Assembly (NCBI RefSeq): GCF_028771845.1
Contig: NZ_CP118270.1
Span: 5,580,001 to 5,644,000, forward strand
DNA from: Paenibacillus marchantiae
Lineage (GTDB): Bacteria; Bacillota; Bacilli; Paenibacillales; Paenibacillaceae
Direction of reading: 5' to 3'
DNA length: 64,000 nucleotides
Translations under genes and position numbers: made by a program
Part shown: piece by piece, positions 17,412 to 52,164 of the stretch
Position numbering within the stretch: position 1 is the stretch's first letter
Layout of the letters: the number at the start of each line of letters is the position of its first letter
Notes under the pieces: model-generated
What the model was told of the DNA's origin: nothing
The model's database searches: none
What the model saw: only the letters and a program-made list of their open reading frames with translations

Positions 17412-20400
17412 TTATTCACATTCAATCTGCCCCAGTTGTACAGACAGACTCTCCCATTCTTCGGCAGGAATTCCACTGGTCAGAGTCTCATGGAGGGCAC
17501 TCACGGCCTCCTCAAGTCTCTCTTCCAATTGACGGGATTGATGCTGCAAAGACTGCCCAAGCTGGTTGTCATAGAATTGGACCAGCTTATTCTCCGCAGC
17601 AGGCAGAACATCGATCACCATCTGTTTAATAACTGGGTCAAGTGCCTCCTGCAGCCGCTGTCGTCCATCTCCTTCGAAGAACTGTTTCGGATTACGGAAA
17701 TAACTCAGATATGTTTTCCAACCCGAAGGTTCTTCCAAACGCACCTCGTCCAGGACAGGTGTACTCCAGCGTTCGTTCAGCGGCAACGACAGATCCATTC
17801 CTCCGGATAATCGTTTCAATTCATCTACACATTCGGTCACTTGTTTGTGCAGCCAAGTCTGACCCGCCTGTTCGAGTCGGAGTGTAGTAGCAAGCAGTTC
17901 CTGCTCCAGTTCGATGGCAATCATGCGCAGCAGTTCGCGACCGCAGGCTGCAAAGGCTGCTTTCAGATTCCCGCGATCCTCACGAAGAACGGATGGATGG
18001 AACGCTTCTGCCATGAACAGACCAAAACGATAACCCAGGCGCTGCCGCACATGGAACAGAAGTTCAGACGTTTCCTGAGCCAGTTCTGCCTTCATGGACC
18101 GTTCCGCAAGCAAATGTACCCTCTGAAGCGACTGTTCCTGGATTGAGCCCAGCTCATCCCGACGTCGCTGTAGAACCTCTTCCCCCTGAGTCGCATCCTC
18201 GGCACGTGTCTTCAGACGTTTTATCACCCGTGCGATCTCTTCAGAAGCTCCACCAACTGCAAGGTCCGCAAGCTCACTTCCTGCAAATCGGTTAAATTCT
18301 TTCTCGAACTGAATGAAGCCGGATTGCTCCAGCAATGTCGCATCGTTGCCCGTCTTGCCTTCCATTGCCAGCATGCTGGATACAGGAAATAGGCGTGGTG
18401 CCCGAATGCCATTACTGCGCAGCTGAGTACTCACATGGTCAAGAACCTGCTCCAACTCCTCTTCAGAGGAAGACAAATCACTTGCATTAACTACAAAGAA
18501 CATCTGATCCATCGCCGAGCTGTCTTTGACGCGTCCCAATTGATTCAGGAACTGTCGGTCTCCTTGAGAGAAGGCATGATTGTAGTACGTTACGAAAATG
18601 AGTGCATCCGCATTCTTCATATAATTGAATGTGACGCCCGTATGACGGGCATTCACGGAGTCAGCCCCTGGCGTATCTACAAGGACAATGCCTTGTTCTG
18701 TCACATCACAACTGTAGTACAGGTCAATACTGTCGACAAAGCAAGACTTCTTCTCATTAGCGACAAAGTTACGATATCCGTTCAGATCCACCAGCACATC
18801 CTGGCCGAGTTGAGCTGCGGTATCCTCCCAGCCTGCTGCAGCTGCCTGCAAAAAGCTGTAATGCGGGCGCCCCGCCGGATGCACATCCTGTGGTGAAAGG
18901 GCTTTGACGCGTTTTTGCCAGTCTGCCCCAGGCTCGCCCAGTCCAAGCAAACGGAAGGAATACGCAAGATCCTCCTGGAAGGCGTCCGGGGACTTCATCC
19001 GGACCCGGGCAGTTCCATGCTCCGCGCCACCGGACGGAGCCATGATCCGGTTAATTGCCGCTGTCGTTGGATGCGGCGAGACCGGTAACACGGCTTCGCC
19101 CAGCAACGCGTTGGCGAAGGAGGACTTACCGGCGCTGAACGCTCCGAACAGCGCCAGCGTAAACGTGCCGCCCGCAAGCGAAGCCGCGCGTGCACGCAGA
19201 TCCCGTACCGCCGACCCCATGGCGGGGTACGGCTCTACCAGCGCAGCGGCGGCTTCCAGCCGTGCCGCCGCTGCGTCCAGGCGCCGGCGGCGCTGTGCGC
19301 CAGCCGCCGGCTGCCCGTGCACCGCCGCTTTGCGCGGCGGCGGTGCCCCTGGAGTCTGTGGCTGCGCAGCCACAGACTCTGCCGTGCCCGTGTGCGGGCC
19401 GGGTGCTTCACCCGGCTCGTGCGCGGGCACGGGCGGGCCCTGCACCTCTGGCAATAGCCCGGAGGTGAGGGGGCCCGCAGGCGGCAGCAGGCTGCGCAGC
19501 CCTGCTGCCTCGGCGTCGGCGGCGCGCTGTAGCGCCGTGTAGCGCGCAGCCGACGCCGATTGCGCCAGCAGCGCTGTGCGGCTGGCGTCCAGCGCCTGGA
19601 GCGCGGCTTCGCCTTGCGCGCCCAGCGCTTCAAGCAAGCGGTCGGCCAGTATCATGGCCGACCTGCGGTAACGGGCCTCAATCTCGCCCCGTATATCTTT
19701 GCTGAATTGAAGCACATACTCAGGAGATACTTCTGCACTGGCGCTCCGTTTCATCTCCAGCAGTGCTTCATCTACCGCAGGCAGCTCCGCGTTCAGCGCC
19801 TGCTCCCACTCAGCACCCCACAGCTGATGTGCTTCACCCAACTGTCTAAGCATGGTACGAATATGCACCTCAACTTGTCCTGATGCCTGATCTTGCAAGA
19901 GTCTCACAAGTTCAGCAGCCCGACGCTGCTTCTCCTGCTCGGTCTTGCCACCAGAGAACAATAAGCCTACCCGGAAACCGGGTTTACGGCTCTCCAAATA
20001 AGCTGCCGCAGAGGTACGAATATCGGCAGGGGTTAGGTTCGCATTTGCCAGAAGGGGTTCCAACTCCGCCCGAAACTTCTCCCGTTCCCGTGATGGTTTG
20101 GAACGAAGTTCTGCTTCCTTTTGATCCAGGAGACCCAACTCCCGTTCCAGGTGTTCAATACCTTCCTTGCCCCCTACTTCCTCCAGGAGCGCTGTCTCTT
20201 CCTCTTCGCGTTCTTCCGCACGTCTAGTCAGGTGCTGCTCAGTCACATGGCTCGCAGAGCTTGCAAGGCTGTGCTTGATTAACCCTTCCTTCTCATTCAT
20301 CATATGTTCAATCAGTTGAGGAAGCTGCTTCCACTGGCTGTAACGATGCTCCTTGTCCCGAAGCGAAGTAAACAGCAGTCCATCATACCGAACTTCCCAG

Positions 20401-21083
20401 GCTGCAAAAATAGCTTCTACACCTTCAACATATTGGTCAAACGATAGCTCCCGGTCCCGATGTTTATCAATCTGGTTCACGATAAGAAACAACGGTTTGC
20501 CCCAATCGGATAGACTTTTGGCAAAAGAAAGGTTGCTTTCCGATTGCACATGGTTATAATCCATCACATAGAACACCACATCAGCAAGATGAAGTGCTGA
20601 ATGTGTTGCTAGGCTGTGCCCCTGATCGGTCGAATCCACACCTGGCGTATCAAGTAATACCGCATCATTTTTCAGTAGGGGAATGTCATCCCATACTTCA
20701 ATGGAGGTGTATGCCCCACCATTCTTGCAATACTCTTCCAATTGTTCTGGCGAAACCTCAAGAACTCCCGCTGAATTGTCAGCGCTTACGTTCGATGACG
20801 TATAAATAAGTGCTCTTGGCTCACCATTACGGATGGATACTACATTCGCACTTGTAGGTACAGGACTCGAAGGCAACACCCGCTTGCCACATAAACTATT
20901 AATCAGACTCGATTTACCTGCCGAGAAGTGTCCACAAAACGCAATCGTTAACTGTTTCATTTCCGCCTTACTGATCAAATCCGTTAAAGCCTGTACAGCT
21001 GTATGGTCCCCTGTCTGCTCCATCGCTTCTCGCAGTGGAAGCAGAGGTTTGGCCATCTCTACTGGGTAATCTGTTCTGGACAT
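17412..21083 (-). CDS. dynA: Two-module bacterial dynamin (DynA-like)
   Basis: 1,223-residue fusion of two dynamin modules, close in plan to Bacillus DynA (about 1,190 residues), a membrane-binding GTPase linked to membrane repair and fusion. Module 1: P-loop GHFSAGKSS (residues 51-59), DTPGVDST, NQIDKHRD. Module 2: P-loop GAFSAGKSS (near 646), DTPGADSVN, NASDLSSSEEE. Each GTPase is followed by long helical stalk sequence. I start at ATG 21083 behind GGGGGAAGG; the frame is open for 123 more codons, but that stretch contains a terminator hairpin and does not look like protein. The linker (about residues 470-640) is Ala/Pro/Arg-rich and is encoded by an extremely G+C-rich palindromic stretch (see 19205-19663). 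Monocistronic. Confidence 0.93.
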   Translation of the reverse strand: MSRTDYPVEMAKPLLPLREAMEQTGDHTAVQALTDLISKAEMKQLTIAFCGHFSAGKSSLINSLCGKRVLPSSPVPTSANVVSIRNGEPRALIYTSSNVSADNSAGVLEVSPEQLEEYCKNGGAYTSIEVWDDIPLLKNDAVLLDTPGVDSTDQGHSLATHSALHLADVVFYVMDYNHVQSESNLSFAKSLSDWGKPLFLIVNQIDKHRDRELSFDQYVEGVEAIFAAWEVRYDGLLFTSLRDKEHRYSQWKQLPQLIEHMMNEKEGLIKHSLASSASHVTEQHLTRRAEEREEEETALLEEVGGKEGIEHLERELGLLDQKEAELRSKPSREREKFRAELEPLLANANLTPADIRTSAAAYLESRKPGFRVGLLFSGGKTEQEKQRRAAELVRLLQDQASGQVEVHIRTMLRQLGEAHQLWGAEWEQALNAELPAVDEALLEMKRSASAEVSPEYVLQFSKDIRGEIEARYRRSAMILADRLLEALGAQGEAALQALDASRTALLAQSASAARYTALQRAADAEAAGLRSLLPPAGPLTSGLLPEVQGPPVPAHEPGEAPGPHTGTAESVAAQPQTPGAPPPRKAAVHGQPAAGAQRRRRLDAAAARLEAAAALVEPYPAMGSAVRDLRARAASLAGGTFTLALFGAFSAGKSSFANALLGEAVLPVSPHPTTAAINRIMAPSGGAEHGTARVRMKSPDAFQEDLAYSFRLLGLGEPGADWQKRVKALSPQDVHPAGRPHYSFLQAAAAGWEDTAAQLGQDVLVDLNGYRNFVANEKKSCFVDSIDLYYSCDVTEQGIVLVDTPGADSVNARHTGVTFNYMKNADALIFVTYYNHAFSQGDRQFLNQLGRVKDSSAMDQMFFVVNASDLSSSEEELEQVLDHVSTQLRSNGIRAPRLFPVSSMLAMEGKTGNDATLLEQSGFIQFEKEFNRFAGSELADLAVGGASEEIARVIKRLKTRAEDATQGEEVLQRRRDELGSIQEQSLQRVHLLAERSMKAELAQETSELLFHVRQRLGYRFGLFMAEAFHPSVLREDRGNLKAAFAACGRELLRMIAIELEQELLATTLRLEQAGQTWLHKQVTECVDELKRLSGGMDLSLPLNERWSTPVLDEVRLEEPSGWKTYLSYFRNPKQFFEGDGRQRLQEALDPVIKQMVIDVLPAAENKLVQFYDNQLGQSLQHQSRQLEERLEEAVSALHETLTSGIPAEEWESLSVQLGQIECE
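19205..19663. repeat. G+C-rich island of tiled inverted repeats inside dynA
   Basis: At least fourteen inverted repeats lie almost end to end. Spans: 19205-19230, 19243-19274 (11-bp perfect arms), 19283-19311 (9), 19319-19346 (10), 19352-19379 (28-bp perfect palindrome), 19382-19432 (nested arms, 3-base loop), 19433-19478 (nested), 19483-19509, 19510-19559 (11- and 7-bp arms on one centre), 19563-19587, 19588-19600, 19601-19619, 19626-19640, 19640-19663 (9-bp arms). By my count positions 19261-19440 are about 80% G+C, against roughly half in flanking genes. Weaker repeats continue to about 19094. The dynamin reading frame stays open throughout and encodes a low-complexity linker. Confidence 0.9.
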
Positions 21084-21233
21084 GACTGGCCTTCCCCCTG
21101 GCTCCTCTAATTTGACATCTGGTCCGATGTCTTTATCTTGTAATTCATTTATTTTACCATTATCAAGTTTGAAATTGAACGGTTTGAATGCAAGATGGCT
21201 GACAAAGAAAATTGCACATCGCAATTCTCCATA

Positions 21234-21265
21234 TAAAAAAATAAAACCGATCCTGTCGGTTTTAT
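21234..21265 (-). terminator. Rho-independent terminator of the nth operon
   Basis: ATAAAACCGA (21241-21250) and TCGGTTTTAT (21256-21265) form a perfect hairpin followed on the minus strand by TTTTTTT. It lies 114 bp after the stop at 21379 and ahead of the dynamin start. Confidence 0.8.
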
Positions 21266-21378
21266 CTGTGAAACGATTGTATTCCATAAGAAGCATGCTG
21301 CGTCCATGCCCAATGGGATCACCTTCAAAAGGATAACCCAGTGACATAGAAGCAGCATATCTTATTATTCCAAACCTC

Positions 21379-21651
21379 TTAAGAAACAGCGTTCTCCATC
21401 GAAGGCAGCAAAATTTCAAATACTTGGCCATGCTGCAAAATCGTAATGTCACGACCTTTGTCTCTCATGACAACCACTTCTGGTTTCGTGGACATACGCT
21501 CGAGATAATGTTCAGGCACATCGCCAGAATGGCTTACAGTGATACCTTCTACTTCTTTTTCTTCGTTTTCAGCCATTTCCTGTTCAACGATTTGTTCAAA
21601 AATATCGGAGAAGGCCTCAAAATTGTCAGTGTACACGGAAATGCATTTCAT
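21379..21651 (-). CDS. Small acidic protein of unknown function
   Basis: 90 residues, not recognised. It begins MKCISVYTDNFE, has an acidic middle (EQEMAENEEKEVEG), then alternating hydrophobic strands (KPEVVVMRDKGRDITILQHG and so on), and looks like a compact soluble alpha/beta protein without signal peptide or TM helix. It starts 23 bp after nth behind AAGAGGATGA, so it is probably co-transcribed with nth, and a terminator follows. Coding is supported by the ribosome site, position and tidy operon spacing. A role in repair is only guilt by association. Confidence 0.8.
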   Translation of the reverse strand: MKCISVYTDNFEAFSDIFEQIVEQEMAENEEKEVEGITVSHSGDVPEHYLERMSTKPEVVVMRDKGRDITILQHGQVFEILLPSMENAVS

Positions 21652-44699: not shown

Positions 44700-45908
44700 A
44701 TGACTAATCAGCCTAAAGCATCGGGTCGTTCAGCCTTTACCATACCTACATCCGATGTAATGACACAGCTTCCTACACAATTTTTTGCTACTCTTGTTCA
44801 AAATGTAAACCGCGAAATCGCAAGTGGTCACGACGTGATTAACCTGGGTCAGGGTAACCCGGATACACCTACACCACCCCACATTGTTAAAACATTGCAG
44901 GAGTCGGCGGAGAACCCGCTCTATCACAAATATTCTCCTTTTAGCGGGCATGCTTTCCTGAAGGAAGCCGTTGCGAAGCGTTACAAGGAAGATTACAACG
45001 TGGACCTGGATCCCGAAACGGAAGTTGCTATTTTATTTGGTGGAAAAACGGGCTTGGTCCAGTTGCCTCAAGTATTGCTCAATCCTGGCGACGTATGTCT
45101 CGTACCTGATCCAGGTTATCCGGATTATTGGTCCGGTGTGGCACTGGCGAAAGCGCACATGTCTTTTATGCCACTGCTAGAGTCCAATGCATTCCTGCCT
45201 GATTATGAAGCAATCTCTACCGAGGATCGGGAGAAGGCCAAGCTGATGTTCCTGAACTATCCCAACAATCCAACATCGGCAACCGCCCCGCTTTCCTTCT
45301 ATGAAGATACGGTAGAGTTCGCCATTCAAAATAAAATCGTCGTAGCCAGCGACTTCGCCTATGGTGCAATTGGATTCGATGGACATCGTCCAGTAAGCTT
45401 TTTGCAGGCAACAGGTGCCAAAGAAGTGGGCATTGAGTTCTACACGTTATCCAAAACCTACAATATGGCGGGTTGGCGCGTCGGATTTGCTCTGGGCAAT
45501 GCGGAGATCATCTCCAAAATCAATCTGCTGCAGGATCATATCTACGTGAGTCTCTTCGGAGGCATCCAGGCCGCTGCTGCTGCGGCACTGACATCTTCCC
45601 AGGAATGTGTCACTTCACTGGTTGCACGTTATGAATCACGTCGCGATGCTTTCTATGATGCACTCTCATCCATCGGCTGGCAGGCCCCTAAACCGGGAGG
45701 TTCCTTCTTTAGCTGGCTGCCTGTACCTGCGGGCTTTACTTCTGCTTCATTTGCCGACGTGTTACTACGTGAAGCAAAAGTCGCGGTAGCACCGGGTATC
45801 GGTTTTGGTTCACATGGTGAGGGCTATGTGCGCGCAGGACTGCTAAGTGATGAAGATCGATTAAGGGAAGCAGCGGAGCGGATTGGCAAGTTGAATTTAT
45901 TCAAGTAA
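44700..45908 (+). CDS. mtnE: PLP-dependent aminotransferase of methionine salvage
   Basis: 402-residue fold-type I aminotransferase. DVINLGQGNPDTPTPPHI, LNYPNNPTSA and the PLP lysine in YTLSKTYNMAGWRVGFA are intact. It closely fits Bacillus MtnE (YkrV), which converts 2-keto-4-methylthiobutyrate to methionine, the last salvage step. The frame opens at 44655, but ATG 44700 has CCGGAGTGA eight bases upstream and gives the family N-terminus. It is followed within 20 bp by the promoter of the proline T-box operon with no terminator between, so its transcripts may run into the T-box. Confidence 0.87.
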   Translation: MTNQPKASGRSAFTIPTSDVMTQLPTQFFATLVQNVNREIASGHDVINLGQGNPDTPTPPHIVKTLQESAENPLYHKYSPFSGHAFLKEAVAKRYKEDYNVDLDPETEVAILFGGKTGLVQLPQVLLNPGDVCLVPDPGYPDYWSGVALAKAHMSFMPLLESNAFLPDYEAISTEDREKAKLMFLNYPNNPTSATAPLSFYEDTVEFAIQNKIVVASDFAYGAIGFDGHRPVSFLQATGAKEVGIEFYTLSKTYNMAGWRVGFALGNAEIISKINLLQDHIYVSLFGGIQAAAAAALTSSQECVTSLVARYESRRDAFYDALSSIGWQAPKPGGSFFSWLPVPAGFTSASFADVLLREAKVAVAPGIGFGSHGEGYVRAGLLSDEDRLREAAERIGKLNLFK

Positions 45909-45928
45909 TTTACAGGTGTATAACCCCT

Positions 45929-45957
45929 TTGCATCTGCCAAGTTTCCATGGTATGTT
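45929..45957 (+). promoter_or_regulatory. Sigma-A promoter of the proBAC-mtnWXB operon
   Basis: TTGCAT (45929-45934), 17 bp, TATGTT (45952-45957). Transcription would start near 45964, just ahead of the T-box leader. Confidence 0.6.
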
Positions 45958-45963
45958 ATAAGG

Positions 45964-46213
45964 AAATATTGAACGAAACGTGATGACGGGACCAGTACGA
46001 GAGGATCAGCCGCGCCCAGAGAGTAAATTCCATCGGGCTGCAAGAATTTACCGCGGCTTCTCTCCGAAACCTACCCCTGAGCGGCCTGTGATGCACAGGA
46101 CAGTGCCTTCTGTTACAGGGCATGAAGCCGGATGATCCAATCATCAATAAAGGTGGTACCGCGGAAGTAACGAACTTTCGTCCTTTTTAACTAAAAGGGC
46201 GGGAGTTTTTTTT
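45964..46213 (+). ncRNA. T-box leader (proline specifier) upstream of proB
   Basis: The conserved T-box sequence AAGGTGGTACCGCGG lies at 46150-46164. It is followed by the terminator hairpin AACTTTCGTCCTTTT/AAAAGGGCGGGAGTT (46173-46206, several G-U pairs) with an eight-T run. Stem I contains the AGTA S-turn (near 46003) opposite a CGAAACCTACC loop, in which CCT at 46070-46072 is the likely specifier, a proline codon. Uncharged tRNA-Pro would pair with specifier and T-box and permit read-through into proB, as known for proBA in Bacillus. The specifier choice is inference; ACC (Thr) overlaps it but fits the downstream genes less well. Confidence 0.9.
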
Positions 46214-46269
46214 GTACCCAACGGTCTGCTCCAGGGTCAATCATTAATATTGTTTAAGGAAGTGAAAAC

Positions 46270-47373
46270 ATGACCTCACGTATTGTAGTTAAGATCGGAA
46301 GCAGTTCGCTTACTACGGAAGAAGGCGGGCTTGATCGAAGTGCCATTACTTTTTTTGCCGGAGAAATTGCTGCCTTGGCCGAACAGGGCCATGAGGTTCT
46401 TCTGGTCACTTCGGGAGCGGTAGCTGCCGGATTCCGGGAGATCGGTTACCCTCAGCGTCCCAAGCAGTTGCATGAAAAACAAGCTGCAGCGGCTGTTGGG
46501 CAAGCTTTGTTGATGCAGGCATATCAACAGGCTTTTGCAGCGCACCGCGTTACTACAGCACAAATTCTGCTCACCCGTACCGACTTTCACAGCCGGAAAC
46601 GTATGGGCAATGCGGGCATGACGGTAGAAGAACTGCTCAAACAGCGCGTCATTCCGATCTTTAACGAGAATGATACCGTATCTGTCGATGAATTAAAGTT
46701 CGGAGATAACGATCTCCTGTCAGCTCTGGTAGCGAATCTGGTCAAGGCACAGCATCTGGTCATTCTTACAGATACCAACGGTCTGTACACGGCCGATCCA
46801 CGAAAAGATCCGTCTGCGTTTCGTTATGACCGTATCCCCGAAATTACGGCAGAAATTTACGCCTATGCTGGCGGTTCTGGATCATCCGTAGGTACAGGCG
46901 GCATGCGATCCAAGGTAGATGCAGCCAAAGTGGCAACGCGTGGAGGCGTGCCTGTCTTTGTGGGAAGTGTGAAGGAACCTGGAGATATGCAAAAAGCGGT
47001 TGATGGCACTGGAAAAGGAACGTATTTCGAGACTCGCCTTGCCGCGCTCTCTCGTAAAAAGCAATGGCTTGGCTTCATGTCTACTCCGCTCGGTACCGTC
47101 GTTGTGGATAATGGTGCCGAAGAAGCACTCGTCCATGGTGGTCATAGTCTCCTGCCTGTAGGCGTCAAACGTGTGCTGGGTACCTTCCATGCCGGAGATG
47201 TTGTAGAGGTGCTGGGTATGGATGAAACCTTGCTCGGTCGTGGTATCGTCAATTATGATGATGACCAGCTACGGCTCATTGCAGGACTGCCAAGTGGCGA
47301 AGTAATGAAGCAGTTGAACAGCATCCATCGACTTGAGGTTATTCATCGGGACGAGTGGATTACGTTAAAATAG
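46270..47373 (+). CDS. proB: Glutamate 5-kinase
   Basis: 367-residue first enzyme of proline synthesis, phosphorylating glutamate. The N-terminal amino acid kinase domain has VKIGSSSLT, LLVTSGAVAAG, FNENDTVSVDELKFGDND and GGMRSKVDAAKVATRGG. The C-terminal PUA domain (about 275-367) is present, as in full-length ProB. AAGGAAGTGAAAAC precedes ATG 46270. First gene after the proline T-box. Confidence 0.97.
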   Translation: MTSRIVVKIGSSSLTTEEGGLDRSAITFFAGEIAALAEQGHEVLLVTSGAVAAGFREIGYPQRPKQLHEKQAAAAVGQALLMQAYQQAFAAHRVTTAQILLTRTDFHSRKRMGNAGMTVEELLKQRVIPIFNENDTVSVDELKFGDNDLLSALVANLVKAQHLVILTDTNGLYTADPRKDPSAFRYDRIPEITAEIYAYAGGSGSSVGTGGMRSKVDAAKVATRGGVPVFVGSVKEPGDMQKAVDGTGKGTYFETRLAALSRKKQWLGFMSTPLGTVVVDNGAEEALVHGGHSLLPVGVKRVLGTFHAGDVVEVLGMDETLLGRGIVNYDDDQLRLIAGLPSGEVMKQLNSIHRLEVIHRDEWITLK

Positions 47374-47466
47374 AAAACCTCTAATCCTACCGAGTGTACT
47401 TCTCAGGATCATATGATACAGCTATTAAATATTCTTTTGTTTCCACTTTATATATGGGAGGAATTT

Positions 47467-48717
47467 ATGATGAGTGAAGTCAGGGAAAAAGCGAGCAAGG
47501 CTCAAGCCGTGGTTCCACAGCTGAATCGACTGAGCACAGAACAAAAAAATAACGCCCTGCTGGTCATGGCAAACGCATTGATTGCCCAATCGGATTCCAT
47601 TATAGTAGCAAACGCTGACGATCTGGAACGTGGCAAACAGCAAGGTACGCCAGAATCGATGCTGGATCGCCTCGCTTTAAATAAGGAGCGTATCGCCGGT
47701 ATCGCAGAAGGACTGCGTCAGATCGTGGAGTTGCAGGACCCTGTGGGCGAAGTGCTGGAGACTTTCACTCGTCCGAACGGATTGCATGTTGAAAAATTGA
47801 GAGTGCCCATCGGTCTAATCGGCATCATTTACGAGGCACGTCCAAATGTTACAGTAGATGCTGCCGGACTTTGCCTCAAAACAGGTAACGCTGTACTGCT
47901 ACGAGGCGGCTCCTCGGCCCTCTCCTCCAATCGCAAAATTGTGGAGGTACTCCATCAGGCACTGGCAACAACAGATATGCCAGCTGATGCATTGCAGCTT
48001 GTTGAGGATGCAGACCGTTCCTCCGTGGACGAAATGCTCAAGTTAAATGGACTGCTCGATGTCATCATCCCACGCGGCGGCGCTTCACTTATCCGCAATG
48101 TGGTCGCCAATGCAACAGTGCCTGTGATCGAAACCGGTGCAGGTATCTGTCATACTTATGTGGATGAATCTGCTGATCCAGTCATGGCAGCGGAGATTGC
48201 CGTTAATGCCAAGGCACAGCGTCCATCCGTATGCAACTCCATGGAAACCTTGTTGCTGCACGCTGTATTCGCGGAGCAGCATCTGCCGGCTCTGGCTGAA
48301 CAACTCCGTGAGGCGAATGTCCTGTTGAAGGGTTGTGACACGGTCCGCCGTCTCGTTCCCTCTGCCCTTTCTGTGACGGAAGAAGATTATGCGACAGAGT
48401 ACAATGATTATATTTTAAATATTCGTGTAGTTCAGAACCTGGATGAAGCGATGGAGCATATCGCCCGTTATGGCACAAAGCATTCAGAGTGTATCGTCAC
48501 CAAGGATACCAGCAATGCAGAACGTTTTTTACATGATGTCGATGCGGCTGCTGTATACCATAATGCTTCTACTCGTTTCACAGACGGATTTGAATTCGGT
48601 TATGGAGCCGAAATTGGGATCAGTACCCAGAAGCTGCATGCTCGTGGACCTATGGGTCTGCCTGCATTAACGTCAACCAAATACCGTATCACTGGAAATG
48701 GACAAATCCGGCAATAA
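47467..48717 (+). CDS. proA: Gamma-glutamyl phosphate reductase
   Basis: 416-residue NADPH-dependent reductase making glutamate semialdehyde. GLIGIIYEARPNVTVDA, the catalytic Cys in QRPSVCNSMETLL and the C-terminal GPMGLPALTSTKY block are present. The open frame begins at 47413, but GGGAGG lies five bases before ATG 47467 (a second ATG follows at 47470). It comes 93 bp after proB with no terminator seen, so the T-box should control it too. Confidence 0.97.
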   Translation: MMSEVREKASKAQAVVPQLNRLSTEQKNNALLVMANALIAQSDSIIVANADDLERGKQQGTPESMLDRLALNKERIAGIAEGLRQIVELQDPVGEVLETFTRPNGLHVEKLRVPIGLIGIIYEARPNVTVDAAGLCLKTGNAVLLRGGSSALSSNRKIVEVLHQALATTDMPADALQLVEDADRSSVDEMLKLNGLLDVIIPRGGASLIRNVVANATVPVIETGAGICHTYVDESADPVMAAEIAVNAKAQRPSVCNSMETLLLHAVFAEQHLPALAEQLREANVLLKGCDTVRRLVPSALSVTEEDYATEYNDYILNIRVVQNLDEAMEHIARYGTKHSECIVTKDTSNAERFLHDVDAAAVYHNASTRFTDGFEFGYGAEIGISTQKLHARGPMGLPALTSTKYRITGNGQIRQ

Positions 48718-48753
48718 TATCGCAGCTACAGTTATATAGGAGGAACGATAAAT

Positions 48754-49614
48754 ATGAGTCAAGAACAACAGACGTTATTACAACAGAAGATTACATTTCA
48801 CGGAGCAGGTGCGATGGCTGAAGCCATCGTGCGCGGATTAATTTCCCGCCTTGTCGTTCGTCCTCAGGATATTACGATGCTGAACCGCAGCAACCAGAAA
48901 CGTCAGGAGGAGCTCAGTACCCGTTATGCCGTACATACCGGAACTGCTGCACAATCGCTGGATCATCTCTCCGCTTCTCCCGTTATTGTACTCTGCATGA
49001 AACCGAAGGATGCTGCCGCAGCGCTGCGTCAACTTGGGCCGCTCCTGTCTCCGGATCAATTAATCGTCTCCGTTATTGCCGGATTATCGATCCGTACGAT
49101 GCAATCCCTGCTGGGACGCAAGCAACCGATCGCCCGCACCATGCCGAATACGTCCAGTACAATCGGGCTTGGAGCAACCGGACTTGCCTTCTCTGAAGAG
49201 ATTACGGATGAACAGCGCAGTACAGTCATGACGATGTTCGAAGCTGTCGGAATCGTGACCATTGTGCCTGAAGATAAACTCGAAGTGCTCACAGGTATTT
49301 CCGGAAGTGGTCCGGCTTATGTATACTATTTGATGGAGGCCATGATTGCCGCAGGTATTCGTGGCGGCTTATCCAGCCAACAATCCCGCGATCTGACTGT
49401 TCAGACCGTGCTGGGTGCTTCTCGCATGGTACAACAGACTGGCCTAGAGCCAATGAAACTCCGTAGTGATGTGACCTCCCCGGGAGGTGCAACCCAGGCA
49501 GCACTAAAAACGCTGGACGAGGGAGATTTCTTTGAAAATGTAATCGCAGCCGTCAACCGCTGTGCAGAGCGCTCACGGGAGATGGGAGCTGCTTTGGAAG
49601 GAGATTTAAAATGA
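48754..49614 (+). CDS. proC: Pyrroline-5-carboxylate reductase
   Basis: 286-residue last enzyme of proline synthesis. The N-terminal NADPH-binding fold FHGAGAMAEAIVRGL is a slightly unusual variant of the GxGxMxxA motif. The C-terminal dimer domain has the signature GSGPAYVYYLMEAM and DVTSPGGATQAALKTL. AGGAGGAACG precedes ATG 48754. Its stop overlaps the start of mtnW (ATGA), linking proline synthesis and methionine salvage genes translationally. Confidence 0.96.
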   Translation: MSQEQQTLLQQKITFHGAGAMAEAIVRGLISRLVVRPQDITMLNRSNQKRQEELSTRYAVHTGTAAQSLDHLSASPVIVLCMKPKDAAAALRQLGPLLSPDQLIVSVIAGLSIRTMQSLLGRKQPIARTMPNTSSTIGLGATGLAFSEEITDEQRSTVMTMFEAVGIVTIVPEDKLEVLTGISGSGPAYVYYLMEAMIAAGIRGGLSSQQSRDLTVQTVLGASRMVQQTGLEPMKLRSDVTSPGGATQAALKTLDEGDFFENVIAAVNRCAERSREMGAALEGDLK

Positions 49615-50834
49615 ATACTATGTGCACAGCCACATATCGTCTGCATGATGATCGTGCAGACTTCCGCAAGAAGGCTGAGTCCATTGCTGTCGGCATGACT
49701 GTTGGCAGTTGGACCGAATTGCCTCAGGCCAAGCGTGAGGCGATGCAGAAACATCTGGGTGAGGTCATCAGCGTTGAGGTGCATGAAGCTGAGGGCATGG
49801 CCCCAGGTGAGCGTTACGCCGATATTACCATTGGTTATCCGGATGTAAATTTCAGCCGTGATATTCCTGCCCTGCTCGTGACGGTCTTTGGCAAAATCTC
49901 AATGGATGGACGCATCAAACTGACACGGCTTGGATTCTCAGACGGCTTCCTCAGCGCATTCCCCGGTCCCAAGTTTGGACTGAACGGTGTTCGTGATCTG
50001 CTAGGTGTACATGATCGTCCATTGTTAATGAGTATCTTTAAATCAGTTATTGGACTGGATGCAGACGAACTGAGGGAACAGTTTATTCGCCAAGCTCTTG
50101 GTGGAGTAGACTTAATTAAAGACGATGAAATTCTGTTTGAGAACAAACTGACTCCGATTGAGAAAAGAGTCGAGGTCTGCATGAAAGCTGCGGAACAGGC
50201 ACGCAAGGAGACGGGTAAGAAACTTCTTTATGCCGCAAATTTGACTGGACCTACATCACGCCTGAAACAACAGGCTGAACGTGCGATAGGTGCAGGAGCA
50301 AATGCGCTGTTGTTCAATGTCTTGTCTTACGGATATGACGTGCTGCACGAACTAAGCAGTGATCCGGACATCAACGTGCCGATCATGGCTCACCCTGCGC
50401 TTGCAGGTGCACTCTATCCTTCACCACACTATGGAATCTCGGCTTCCGTCCTGCTGGGACAGCTGATGCGACTTGCCGGAGCGGATCTGGTTCTCTTCCC
50501 TTCCCCTTACGGATCGGTGACGATGCCGAAGGAAGAGAATATGGCCATTACAGAACAATTGCTGTCACCTGAGCTTCCGGTCAGAACCAGCATGCCTGTG
50601 CCTTCGGCTGGTATACATCCAGGGCTTGTACCTCTTATTCTGCGTGACTTCGGCACCGATGTCATCGTTAATGCCGGCGGAGGTATTCATGGACATCCCA
50701 TGGGCACTGAGGCAGGCGGACGGGCATTCTTGCAGGCTATCGAGGCAGCCCAGCGTTCCATTCCACTGGCAGAGTATGCAGTCGAACATCCCGAACTGAA
50801 AAGTGCACTGGATCTGTGGGGTGGCGAACGATGA
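49611..50834 (+). CDS. mtnW: 2,3-diketo-5-methylthiopentyl-1-phosphate enolase (RuBisCO-like)
   Basis: 407-residue RuBisCO-like protein of methionine salvage. The metal and Lys motif GGVDLIKDDEIL (equivalent to the carbamylated Lys-Asp-Asp-Glu of RuBisCO), FPGPKFGLNGVRDLLG and NAGGGIHGHPMGT at the phosphate site are visible. It lacks the RuBisCO loop-6 lysine context, as expected for the enolase. It starts inside the proC stop and ends overlapping mtnX, so translation is coupled on both sides. Confidence 0.95.
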   Translation: MNTMCTATYRLHDDRADFRKKAESIAVGMTVGSWTELPQAKREAMQKHLGEVISVEVHEAEGMAPGERYADITIGYPDVNFSRDIPALLVTVFGKISMDGRIKLTRLGFSDGFLSAFPGPKFGLNGVRDLLGVHDRPLLMSIFKSVIGLDADELREQFIRQALGGVDLIKDDEILFENKLTPIEKRVEVCMKAAEQARKETGKKLLYAANLTGPTSRLKQQAERAIGAGANALLFNVLSYGYDVLHELSSDPDINVPIMAHPALAGALYPSPHYGISASVLLGQLMRLAGADLVLFPSPYGSVTMPKEENMAITEQLLSPELPVRTSMPVPSAGIHPGLVPLILRDFGTDVIVNAGGGIHGHPMGTEAGGRAFLQAIEAAQRSIPLAEYAVEHPELKSALDLWGGER

Positions 50835-51508
50835 GAAGTGATAAAAAAACGGTCATTTTCTGTGATTTCGATGGCACGATCACCCTTTCGGACAATATCG
50901 TAGCGATTATGAAACATTTTAAACCCGAAGGTATTGAAGCAATTATGAAAGACACGATTGAACAGCGAATTTCGCTCCGCGAAGGTGTGGGAGCGATGTT
51001 CGCTCTGTTGCCTTCTTCGCAGAAAGATGAGATTGTGGAATTTGTACTTGGACAGGCTGGCATCCGAGAAGGGTTCAGCGAATTTCTTGCATACGTTCGG
51101 GACGAGGGCATTGAATTCAATGTCACCAGCGGCGGAATGGACTTTTTTATCGAGCCTTTGCTCGCTCCATTCGATATTCCACAGGATCACGTTTATTGCA
51201 ATGGGGCAGATTTCACAGATGAATTTATACGTATTGAATGGCCTAATCCATGTCAGCCTCCTTGTGAGAACGGATGCGGCATGTGTAAAACGACGGTTAT
51301 TCGTACATTCCCGGAAGAACAATATAATCGTATCCTCATTGGAGACAGTCTAACGGATTTTGAAGGTGCCAAAATCGCTGATCTTGTCTACTCCCGTTCT
51401 ATTCTGACGGATAAGTGTATAGAGCTGGGTGTGGATCATGTCCCATTCACAACCTTCTACGATATTATGGAAGATATGAAACAGAAGCAAACACAAGGAG
51501 TGCTGTAA
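50831..51508 (+). CDS. mtnX: 2-hydroxy-3-keto-5-methylthiopentenyl-1-phosphate phosphatase
   Basis: 225-residue HAD-superfamily phosphatase acting directly after MtnW. Motif I is IFCDFDGTITLSDN with the nucleophilic Asp; motif II is in FNVTSGGMDFF; motif III/IV is in ILIGDSLTDFEGAKIADL. A short Cys-rich segment (CQPPCENGCGMCK) is typical of MtnX. ATG 50831 overlaps the mtnW stop (ATGA) and is preferred to the upstream GTG. Confidence 0.95.
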   Translation: MRSDKKTVIFCDFDGTITLSDNIVAIMKHFKPEGIEAIMKDTIEQRISLREGVGAMFALLPSSQKDEIVEFVLGQAGIREGFSEFLAYVRDEGIEFNVTSGGMDFFIEPLLAPFDIPQDHVYCNGADFTDEFIRIEWPNPCQPPCENGCGMCKTTVIRTFPEEQYNRILIGDSLTDFEGAKIADLVYSRSILTDKCIELGVDHVPFTTFYDIMEDMKQKQTQGVL

Positions 51509-51510
51509 AA

Positions 51511-52164
51511 ATGGGTTTTGAAAAGATTACATTGGAACATAAACGCCAGGTCCTCGAAGAGCTGGCTGATATCAAAGCGCTGTTTGCCAGCCGTAACTGG
51601 TTCCCTGGTACAAGTGGCAACCTGTCGATGCGTGTGGGCGACTTCGACCCGGAGCAATTCTACTTTGCAGTTACTGCATCAGGCAAAGACAAATCCCTCC
51701 GTACACCGGAAGACTTTCTGTTTGTGGACAAGCATGGTAAAGCCATTGAGACCACAACCCTGAAACCGAGCGCTGAAACGTTGATTCACTGCGAAATCTA
51801 TCGTTTAACTGGCTGTGGCGCGGTGTTCCATGTGCATACCGTATTTAACAACCTGATCAGTGAATTCTTTGGAGCAGATGGACACGTACCGATTCAAGGC
51901 ATCGAATTGATCAAGGCTTTCAACATCTGGGAAGAAAATGCGGAGATTCGTGTACCGGTCCTGCCTAACTTCGCTGATATTCCATCCATCGCTGAATTGG
52001 TGCCAGGTGTACTTGATGCCAACGTACCAGGAATTTTGCTGCGTAATCACGGTATTTATGCCTGGGGCAAAGATGCTTTTGAAGCGAAACGTCATCTGGA
52101 AGCGTTCGAGTTCCTGTTCGAAGTGATGTACCGTCAACTTCTGCTGAAGGGTGCTACGAAATAG
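51511..52164 (+). CDS. mtnB: Methylthioribulose-1-phosphate dehydratase
   Basis: 217-residue zinc enzyme of the class II aldolase/adducin family that dehydrates methylthioribulose-1-phosphate. NWFPGTSGNLSMRV near the N-terminus, zinc ligands in VFHVHTVFNN and LLRNHGIYAWG, and the catalytic Glu in GIELIKAFN are present. The frame is open upstream into mtnX, but ATG 51511 sits two bases after the mtnX stop, behind AAGGAGTG. Last gene of the operon, followed by a terminator. mtnA, mtnK and mtnD are not in this window. Confidence 0.95.
   Translation: MGFEKITLEHKRQVLEELADIKALFASRNWFPGTSGNLSMRVGDFDPEQFYFAVTASGKDKSLRTPEDFLFVDKHGKAIETTTLKPSAETLIHCEIYRLTGCGAVFHVHTVFNNLISEFFGADGHVPIQGIELIKAFNIWEENAEIRVPVLPNFADIPSIAELVPGVLDANVPGILLRNHGIYAWGKDAFEAKRHLEAFEFLFEVMYRQLLLKGATK

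Follow-up and report, generated by a model that had tools for sequence, protein, structure and literature searches.

The palindrome cluster within the dynA gene of Paenibacillus marchantiae belongs to a class of coding islands, GC-rich and dense in palindromes, that occupy fixed places in unrelated genes. The islands have not been inserted; they fold more than codon usage and protein sequence demand, their silent sites change slowly, and the changes that do occur keep pairing irrespective of strand. This suggests that the DNA itself, beyond the protein it encodes, is preserved in them.

The cluster was analysed in a window of 64,000 nt with a mean GC content of ∼0.46 (contig NZ_CP118270.1, positions 5,580,001–5,644,000); coordinates below refer to this window unless marked as genome positions. 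Elsewhere in the window, GC skew was positive over ∼7 kb (45001–52000) and otherwise mostly negative. The true start of dynA probably lies downstream of the listed GTG. Features of the gene and its island were as follows; only the reading frame is assigned a strand.

17412–21452, minus strand: dynA open reading frame, host gene of the island; Pfam Dynamin_N in two stretches, corresponding to two dynamin-type GTPase modules
18962–19679: whole dynA island; GC 0.72, silent divergence 0.08–0.26 against 0.36–0.50 elsewhere in dynA
19205–19663: palindrome-dense core of the island; inverted repeats cover 0.69 of it, as compared with 0.42 in codon shuffles
19242–19275: hairpin with perfect 12-bp arms (19242–19253 and 19264–19275) and a 10-nt loop
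19283 and 19303: further perfect 9-bp arms
19319–19328 and 19337–19346: perfect 10-bp arms
19352–19379: perfect 28-bp palindrome, arms of 14 + 14 bp without a loop
19382–19432: nested hairpin of 51 nt; 24-bp arms, 83% complementary, 3-nt loop
19382 and 19424: further perfect 9-bp arms
19398 and 19409: further perfect 8-bp arms
19433–19478: hairpin with outer 8-bp arms (at 19433 and 19471) around another hairpin
19483–19509: hairpin with 9-bp arms (at 19483 and 19501) and a 9-nt loop
19510–19559: hairpin with 19-bp arms, 95% complementary, and a 12-nt loop; 11 bp are perfect (19510–19520 and 19549–19559)
19640–19663: hairpin with 9-bp arms (at 19640 and 19655) and a 6-nt loop

The repeats named in the original prediction are present with minor corrections of coordinates. 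The 28-bp palindrome, the 11-bp arms within 19510–19559 and the 51-nt hairpin with its 3-nt loop were all recovered, and the arms described as 11 bp at 19243–19274 exist but are 12 bp long and begin one base further out. The claim that nearly every base belongs to an inverted repeat was overstated: 66% do so when loops of up to 40 nt are allowed, and 69% are covered by arms of at least 6 bp. A GC content of about 80% had been given for 19261–19440, and 0.80 was measured there, as compared with 0.76 in 19205–19663. Although the repeats do lie within 19205–19663, the feature is wider, since silent divergence is low over ∼18962–19679; its border is abrupt near 19679 and gradual near 18962.

The density of inverted repeats was compared with that in 5000 permutations of synonymous codons, which leave both protein and codon usage unchanged. 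Arms of at least 6 bp covered 0.693 of 19205–19663, whereas the shuffles gave a mean of 0.422 (sd 0.060, maximum 0.618), and none of the 5000 reached the observed value. Folding energy of the dynA region had a z of −7.5 on both strands when set against 100 codon shuffles, and close orthologues gave minimum free energy (MFE) z values of −5 to −10. An excess of inverted repeats was present in the linker of all 34 of the closest species. Because codon shuffles, which the original prediction had named as a test that could refute it, never match the coverage and folding is so extreme, the cluster is real and no mere effect of a GC-rich linker. The composition of the linker does demand GC, as would be expected if this were ordinary coding for an Ala/Pro/Arg-rich linker with palindromes arising by chance. 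We give that reading almost no credence, however: it is excluded by the shuffles, by the conservation of silent sites, and by a helicase gene, part of which is GC-rich without any such excess (z −1.9).

Each of the 60 Paenibacillus genomes searched yielded a DynA, and 57 of the loci fetched had an intact linker. In these 57 orthologues the linker measured 134–157 aa. Because its length is near-constant, whole palindromes have been neither inserted nor lost; no gain or loss of a whole palindrome, and no empty site, was seen across the 57 sequences. The linker DNA and its tightest hairpins gave no significant match in the genome other than their own locus. The cluster had been likened to in-frame palindromic elements that move or expand, such as those of Rickettsia (RPE); whole-unit insertions or deletions among relatives and further copies of the arms were to be expected, and neither was found. 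In-frame palindromes do sit here in a protein-tolerant linker, as RPE would, but length polymorphism of element size is lacking in the 57 orthologues, there is no second genomic copy, and the islands have no sequence in common. An RPE-like insertion is thus extremely improbable, and a mobile element is ruled out by constant linker length together with the absence of further copies.

The original prediction also called for a search for other genic GC islands, and such islands were found. We scanned 2.06 Mb of the 6.98-Mb genome (46% GC), comprising 1.26 Mb examined for GC peaks and a further 0.8 Mb, and found 14 intragenic islands of ∼0.4–1.6 kb and 63–80% GC, in unrelated genes, whose folding exceeds that of codon shuffles. 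Six came from the first 1.26 Mb: dynA, sbcC, a MurJ-like flippase gene, a ligase-like gene with a Wzy_C domain, thiE, and an Orn/Lys/Arg decarboxylase gene. The further 0.8 Mb held nine longer GC-rich coding stretches, eight of which had a folding excess; from their translations we take the genes of these stretches to be metE, efeB, ggt, tsaB, nnrDE and genes for a glycoside hydrolase, an MBL-fold protein and a helicase. The tail of the helicase gene, GC-rich yet with no folding excess, serves as a natural negative control. Fold excess was therefore present in 14 of the 15 GC-rich coding stretches scanned, or ∼7 per Mb, and by extrapolation from the 2.06 Mb the whole genome would carry roughly 45–50 islands. 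Among 3,088 coding windows of 300 nt, mean inverted-repeat excess was about zero below 60% GC (∼3,070 windows) and an excess was present in the 15 windows above 60% GC.

The islands keep their positions in orthologues (sbcC, n = 30; MurJ-like, n = 30; ligase-like, n = 12; thiE, n = 30; dynA, n = 57). A search for a protein-binding or methylation motif found none common to the islands, which have only composition in common. Those of dynA and sbcC sit in linker or coiled-coil regions; nevertheless, islands are not a property of flexible linkers, because ThiE, a single-domain enzyme, carries one. The most GC-rich island seen (genome 771315–772392, 1077 bp, up to 83% GC) lies in a glycosyltransferase/TPR-like gene and has a weak folding excess, and the longest, of 1.6 kb (genome 1688638–1690236), lies in a gene resembling an NAD(P)H-hydrate repair enzyme. 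Two GC-rich tandem repeats of a different kind were also encountered: ∼three near-identical copies of a non-coding unit of ∼85 bp (GGCCCGAAGGTGCCTCAAGGAGAGAGCCAGCCCGCCGGAGGAGCGAAGCGTCCGGCA...) upstream of ileS (genome 6038988–6039480), and an array (genome 390407–390628) whose frame repeats APLKHQDAHGFALLAMVAIAFGS and which looks non-coding.

Silent change within the islands is slow. Among the 34 closest species, silent divergence in dynA was 0.08–0.26 at residues 591–830 (∼18962–19679), as compared with 0.36–0.50 in the rest of the gene; four-fold sites had undergone 2.0 inferred changes per site in the island against 6.5–6.8 outside. The sbcC, MurJ-like and ligase-like islands have bell-shaped profiles of GC and silent divergence, ∼600–750 bp wide, with silent minima of 0.05–0.1 against 0.35–0.5 outside. 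In thiE, silent divergence was 0.03–0.26 as compared with 0.28–0.48 in most neighbouring genes. Each of the five islands tested had a silent divergence ∼0.2–0.4 of that in its flanks, and in four of them G↔C changes were suppressed: in dynA they numbered 0.46 per G/C site in the island and 1.82–1.87 outside, and silent G↔C change was likewise reduced in the three others, the reduction being ∼4-fold or more in most island site classes.

Gene conversion with a GC bias leaves G↔C changes unaffected. Since silent G↔C changes are suppressed in the islands too, GC-biased conversion alone is insufficient and is ruled out as the sole cause. The broader proposal, that the islands are recombination hotspots subject to GC-biased conversion with palindromes as a by-product, draws on the bell-shaped GC and divergence profiles about a centre (600–800 bp wide), on high GC3 and on the shift of the proteins to Ala, Gly, Pro and Arg. 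Against it stand the suppression of G↔C changes, the existence of GC-rich windows without fold excess (the helicase gene; dynA in clade B, below), and the proportionality of island distance to flank distance, which is unlike recombinational homogenization; we consider it quite unlikely. Silent distance in the islands was 0.3–0.6 of that in the flanks, mostly 0.33–0.43, over all evolutionary distances, and on the strength of this near-constancy we reject homogenization of the region by interspecies recombination. The ratio was slightly higher at the shortest distances, 0.47–0.60 below 0.1 as compared with ∼0.35–0.4 beyond, from few pairs. An overlapping antisense reading frame was also considered: the longest open runs differ between species in nearly every frame, and at such a GC content one would expect long frames in any case.

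The slowdown is not confined to stems. Silent sites that hardly ever fall within a perfect stem are ∼3-fold slow as well (GC-major sites, 0.9–2.2 changes against 3.1–6.5 outside), so stems alone do not carry it. Second codon positions in dynA and sbcC show no slowdown, which fits simply neither with a lower mutation rate nor with selection at the level of DNA.

The changes that did occur preserved structure. In 26 of 28 species comparisons, real silent changes kept folding better than the same changes placed randomly at equivalent sites; the comparisons share tree branches and so are not independent, although the four genes are. Mean z in this test was −1.2 to −2.8 for islands and +0.5 to −1.0 for control segments, on either strand. 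In dynA, stems had undergone 13 double changes from one Watson–Crick pair to another on single branches, as compared with a null mean of 1.5 and a maximum of 6 in 1000 runs, and with 0–3 for slid structures. Outer pairs of the 28-bp palindrome at 19352–19379 covary across species (A–T to C–G, T–A to C–G, and T–A to A–T), as do one pair of the hairpin at 19242–19275 (G–C, A–T, T–A) and two outer pairs of that at 19510–19559 (G–C to T–A). Several of the double changes in dynA (T–A to A–T, A–T to C–G) lack a G–U intermediate, as one would expect if both changes were templated. Covariation was weak in the sbcC, MurJ-like and ligase-like islands, with 3–6 double stem changes against ∼1 expected, and ∼12% of stem cells in dynA are broken relative to the reference.

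Such structure could in principle be that of the mRNA, selected because it slows ribosomes or protects the transcript; the original prediction had raised slowed translation between the two GTPase modules. The very high predicted stability of folding (MFE z −5 to −10 among close orthologues of dynA) and the location of the dynA and sbcC islands in linker or coiled-coil regions are in keeping with this. However, folding is as extreme on the antisense as on the sense strand, and at reference stems G.T and A.C mispairs occupied 375 cells each; the corresponding events stood at 113:77, where mutation alone leads one to expect ∼1.2–1.3 (C>T:G>A outside, 1.22). Because the pattern is strand-symmetric and G.U is not favoured over A.C, RNA pairing is unsupported, and the test for RNA selection came out negative; these data argue, with moderate power, against RNA pairing being what is preserved. 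A known RNA family can be set aside, no Rfam family reaching threshold in the islands and nothing coming near a gathering score. Similar islands in the single-domain ThiE and TsaB, together with the lack of an RNA-strand signal, leave slowed translation between modules unsupported as a general account, and selected mRNA structure of either kind seems to us unlikely.

Outside the clade of closest species, the dynA island, defined by an excess of inverted repeats and a linker GC content well above that of the flanks, is seen again in many Paenibacillus at 39–50% protein identity, and some Paenibacillus do not have it. It was absent from Bacillus, Brevibacillus, Aneurinibacillus, Anoxybacillus, Parageobacillus, Heliobacterium and Saccharibacillus, and absent or weak in Cohnella; genera without the island have linkers of similar length to those of Paenibacillus, except for a shorter one in Brevibacillus. 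Linker DNA is 73–78% GC in the 34 closest species, in a gene of ∼50% GC. Within Paenibacillus, clade B has a GC-rich linker in which inverted-repeat excess is weak and silent change is not slowed, whereas clades A and C combine inverted-repeat excess with low silent divergence, the linker of clade C also being GC-rich. This ties slow change to folding and not to GC. Draft assemblies had six contig ends and two N gaps at the linker among 80 dynA loci, and in the family search ∼10 of 41 genomes, from other genera, had dynA split between contigs in or near it (G062, G072, G076, G080, G084, G085, G088, G092, G093 and G094). These breaks are consistent with strong hairpins in vitro.

The mechanism we infer, and offer as a proposal, is that repair templated by the arms and biased towards GC maintains the islands as hairpin-forming DNA; we regard it as quite possible, at a little under an even chance. 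During replication or repair the DNA arms would fold back, and one arm could then serve polymerase or repair enzymes as template for the other, by template switching or quasi-palindrome correction. A new mutation in a single arm would usually be reverted, because copying it into the other arm would often change an amino acid, and would occasionally be copied into both. GC-biased repair at the mismatched positions would raise GC, and stronger hairpins would be corrected more, so that islands would be self-reinforcing. The inverted-repeat excess of dynA, the fold excess in 14 of 15 stretches, the fixed positions, the low silent distance at every evolutionary distance, the 26 of 28 comparisons that keep folding, the double changes in dynA and the lack of an RNA-strand signal all favour this account; an excess of double stem changes on one branch, expected of template switching, was found in dynA (13 against a null mean of 1.5). 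Against it stand the slow sites outside stems, which arm correction alone does not explain, covariation that is strong only in dynA, and the unslowed second codon positions of dynA and sbcC. Of the original prediction, the idea of a hairpin hotspot with GC-biased repair is what remains, except that the island is slow and conserved and not expanding, and GC bias alone does not suffice given the ∼4-fold or greater suppression of G↔C changes.

The main rival is purifying selection for DNA secondary structure, in which cruciforms or single-strand hairpins, for instance, might serve to buffer supercoiling or as binding sites for proteins of the nucleoid, condensin or the primosome. Low silent divergence that extends to G↔C changes, structure-keeping substitutions, covariation and strand symmetry all speak for it, as does the coincidence of inverted-repeat excess with low divergence in clades A and C when clade B, with high GC, has a weak excess and no slowdown. 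The higher ratio at the shortest distances, from few pairs, would also fit mildly deleterious changes that still segregate. In contrast, the islands have no common motif and no common gene function, broken stem cells make up ∼12% of those in dynA, and sites outside stems are slow as well; we hold this explanation to be possible but rather doubtful. No single model, whether arm-templated correction, lower mutation or selection on DNA structure, simply explains all the data.

Arm-templated repair, the reading we prefer, rests on known processes. Template switching is documented, with compensatory double changes and homogenized arms in coding genes (PMC8794818, PMC8604942). Quasi-palindrome correction or template switching is the nearest known process (PMC8794818, PMC8604942), alike in its concerted double changes in stems, arm homogenization, occurrence in coding DNA and expected lack of RNA strand preference; its known cases are single events, whereas the islands are dense, genus-conserved, GC-rich and slow, including at non-stem silent sites. 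RPE also place in-frame palindromes at protein-tolerant coding sites, but the islands have no repeat family and no insertion polymorphism, and orthologous linker length is constant. Extragenic REP/BIME palindromes (PMC3733652) are likewise clustered and GC-rich in a bacterial chromosome, whereas the islands are intragenic, without a shared consensus, and not dispersed copies. Hotspots of GC-biased gene conversion resemble the islands in their local, bell-shaped rise of GC within genes but not in G↔C suppression, low divergence or palindrome excess. Conserved RNA structures in coding sequence (synonymous-constraint elements) share reduced silent divergence, structure-keeping changes and covariation; in contrast, the islands are strand-symmetric, have no common structure and occur in dozens of unrelated genes. 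We found no description of comparable islands in Paenibacillus or other bacteria in the open-access literature searched.

A bolder possibility, which we advance tentatively and with considerable doubt, is that in Paenibacillus dozens of coding islands are kept as hairpin-forming, GC-rich DNA by a dedicated, undescribed process or function at the level of DNA, which would act independently of RNA and override the choice of codons and, in part, of amino acids. Such a DNA-level function or dedicated maintenance, if shown, would be categorically new.

Silent sites are widely taken as a neutral yardstick in bacteria. A recurrent class of coding islands with silent change slowed ∼3-fold and pairing kept without an RNA signature would imply that local DNA structure can set rates of mutation or fixation across hundreds of bases. 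Hairpin islands probably also explain why contigs break at the same spot in many draft genomes of Paenibacillaceae. The islands provide a natural system in which to ask whether hairpin-templated repair shapes genes.
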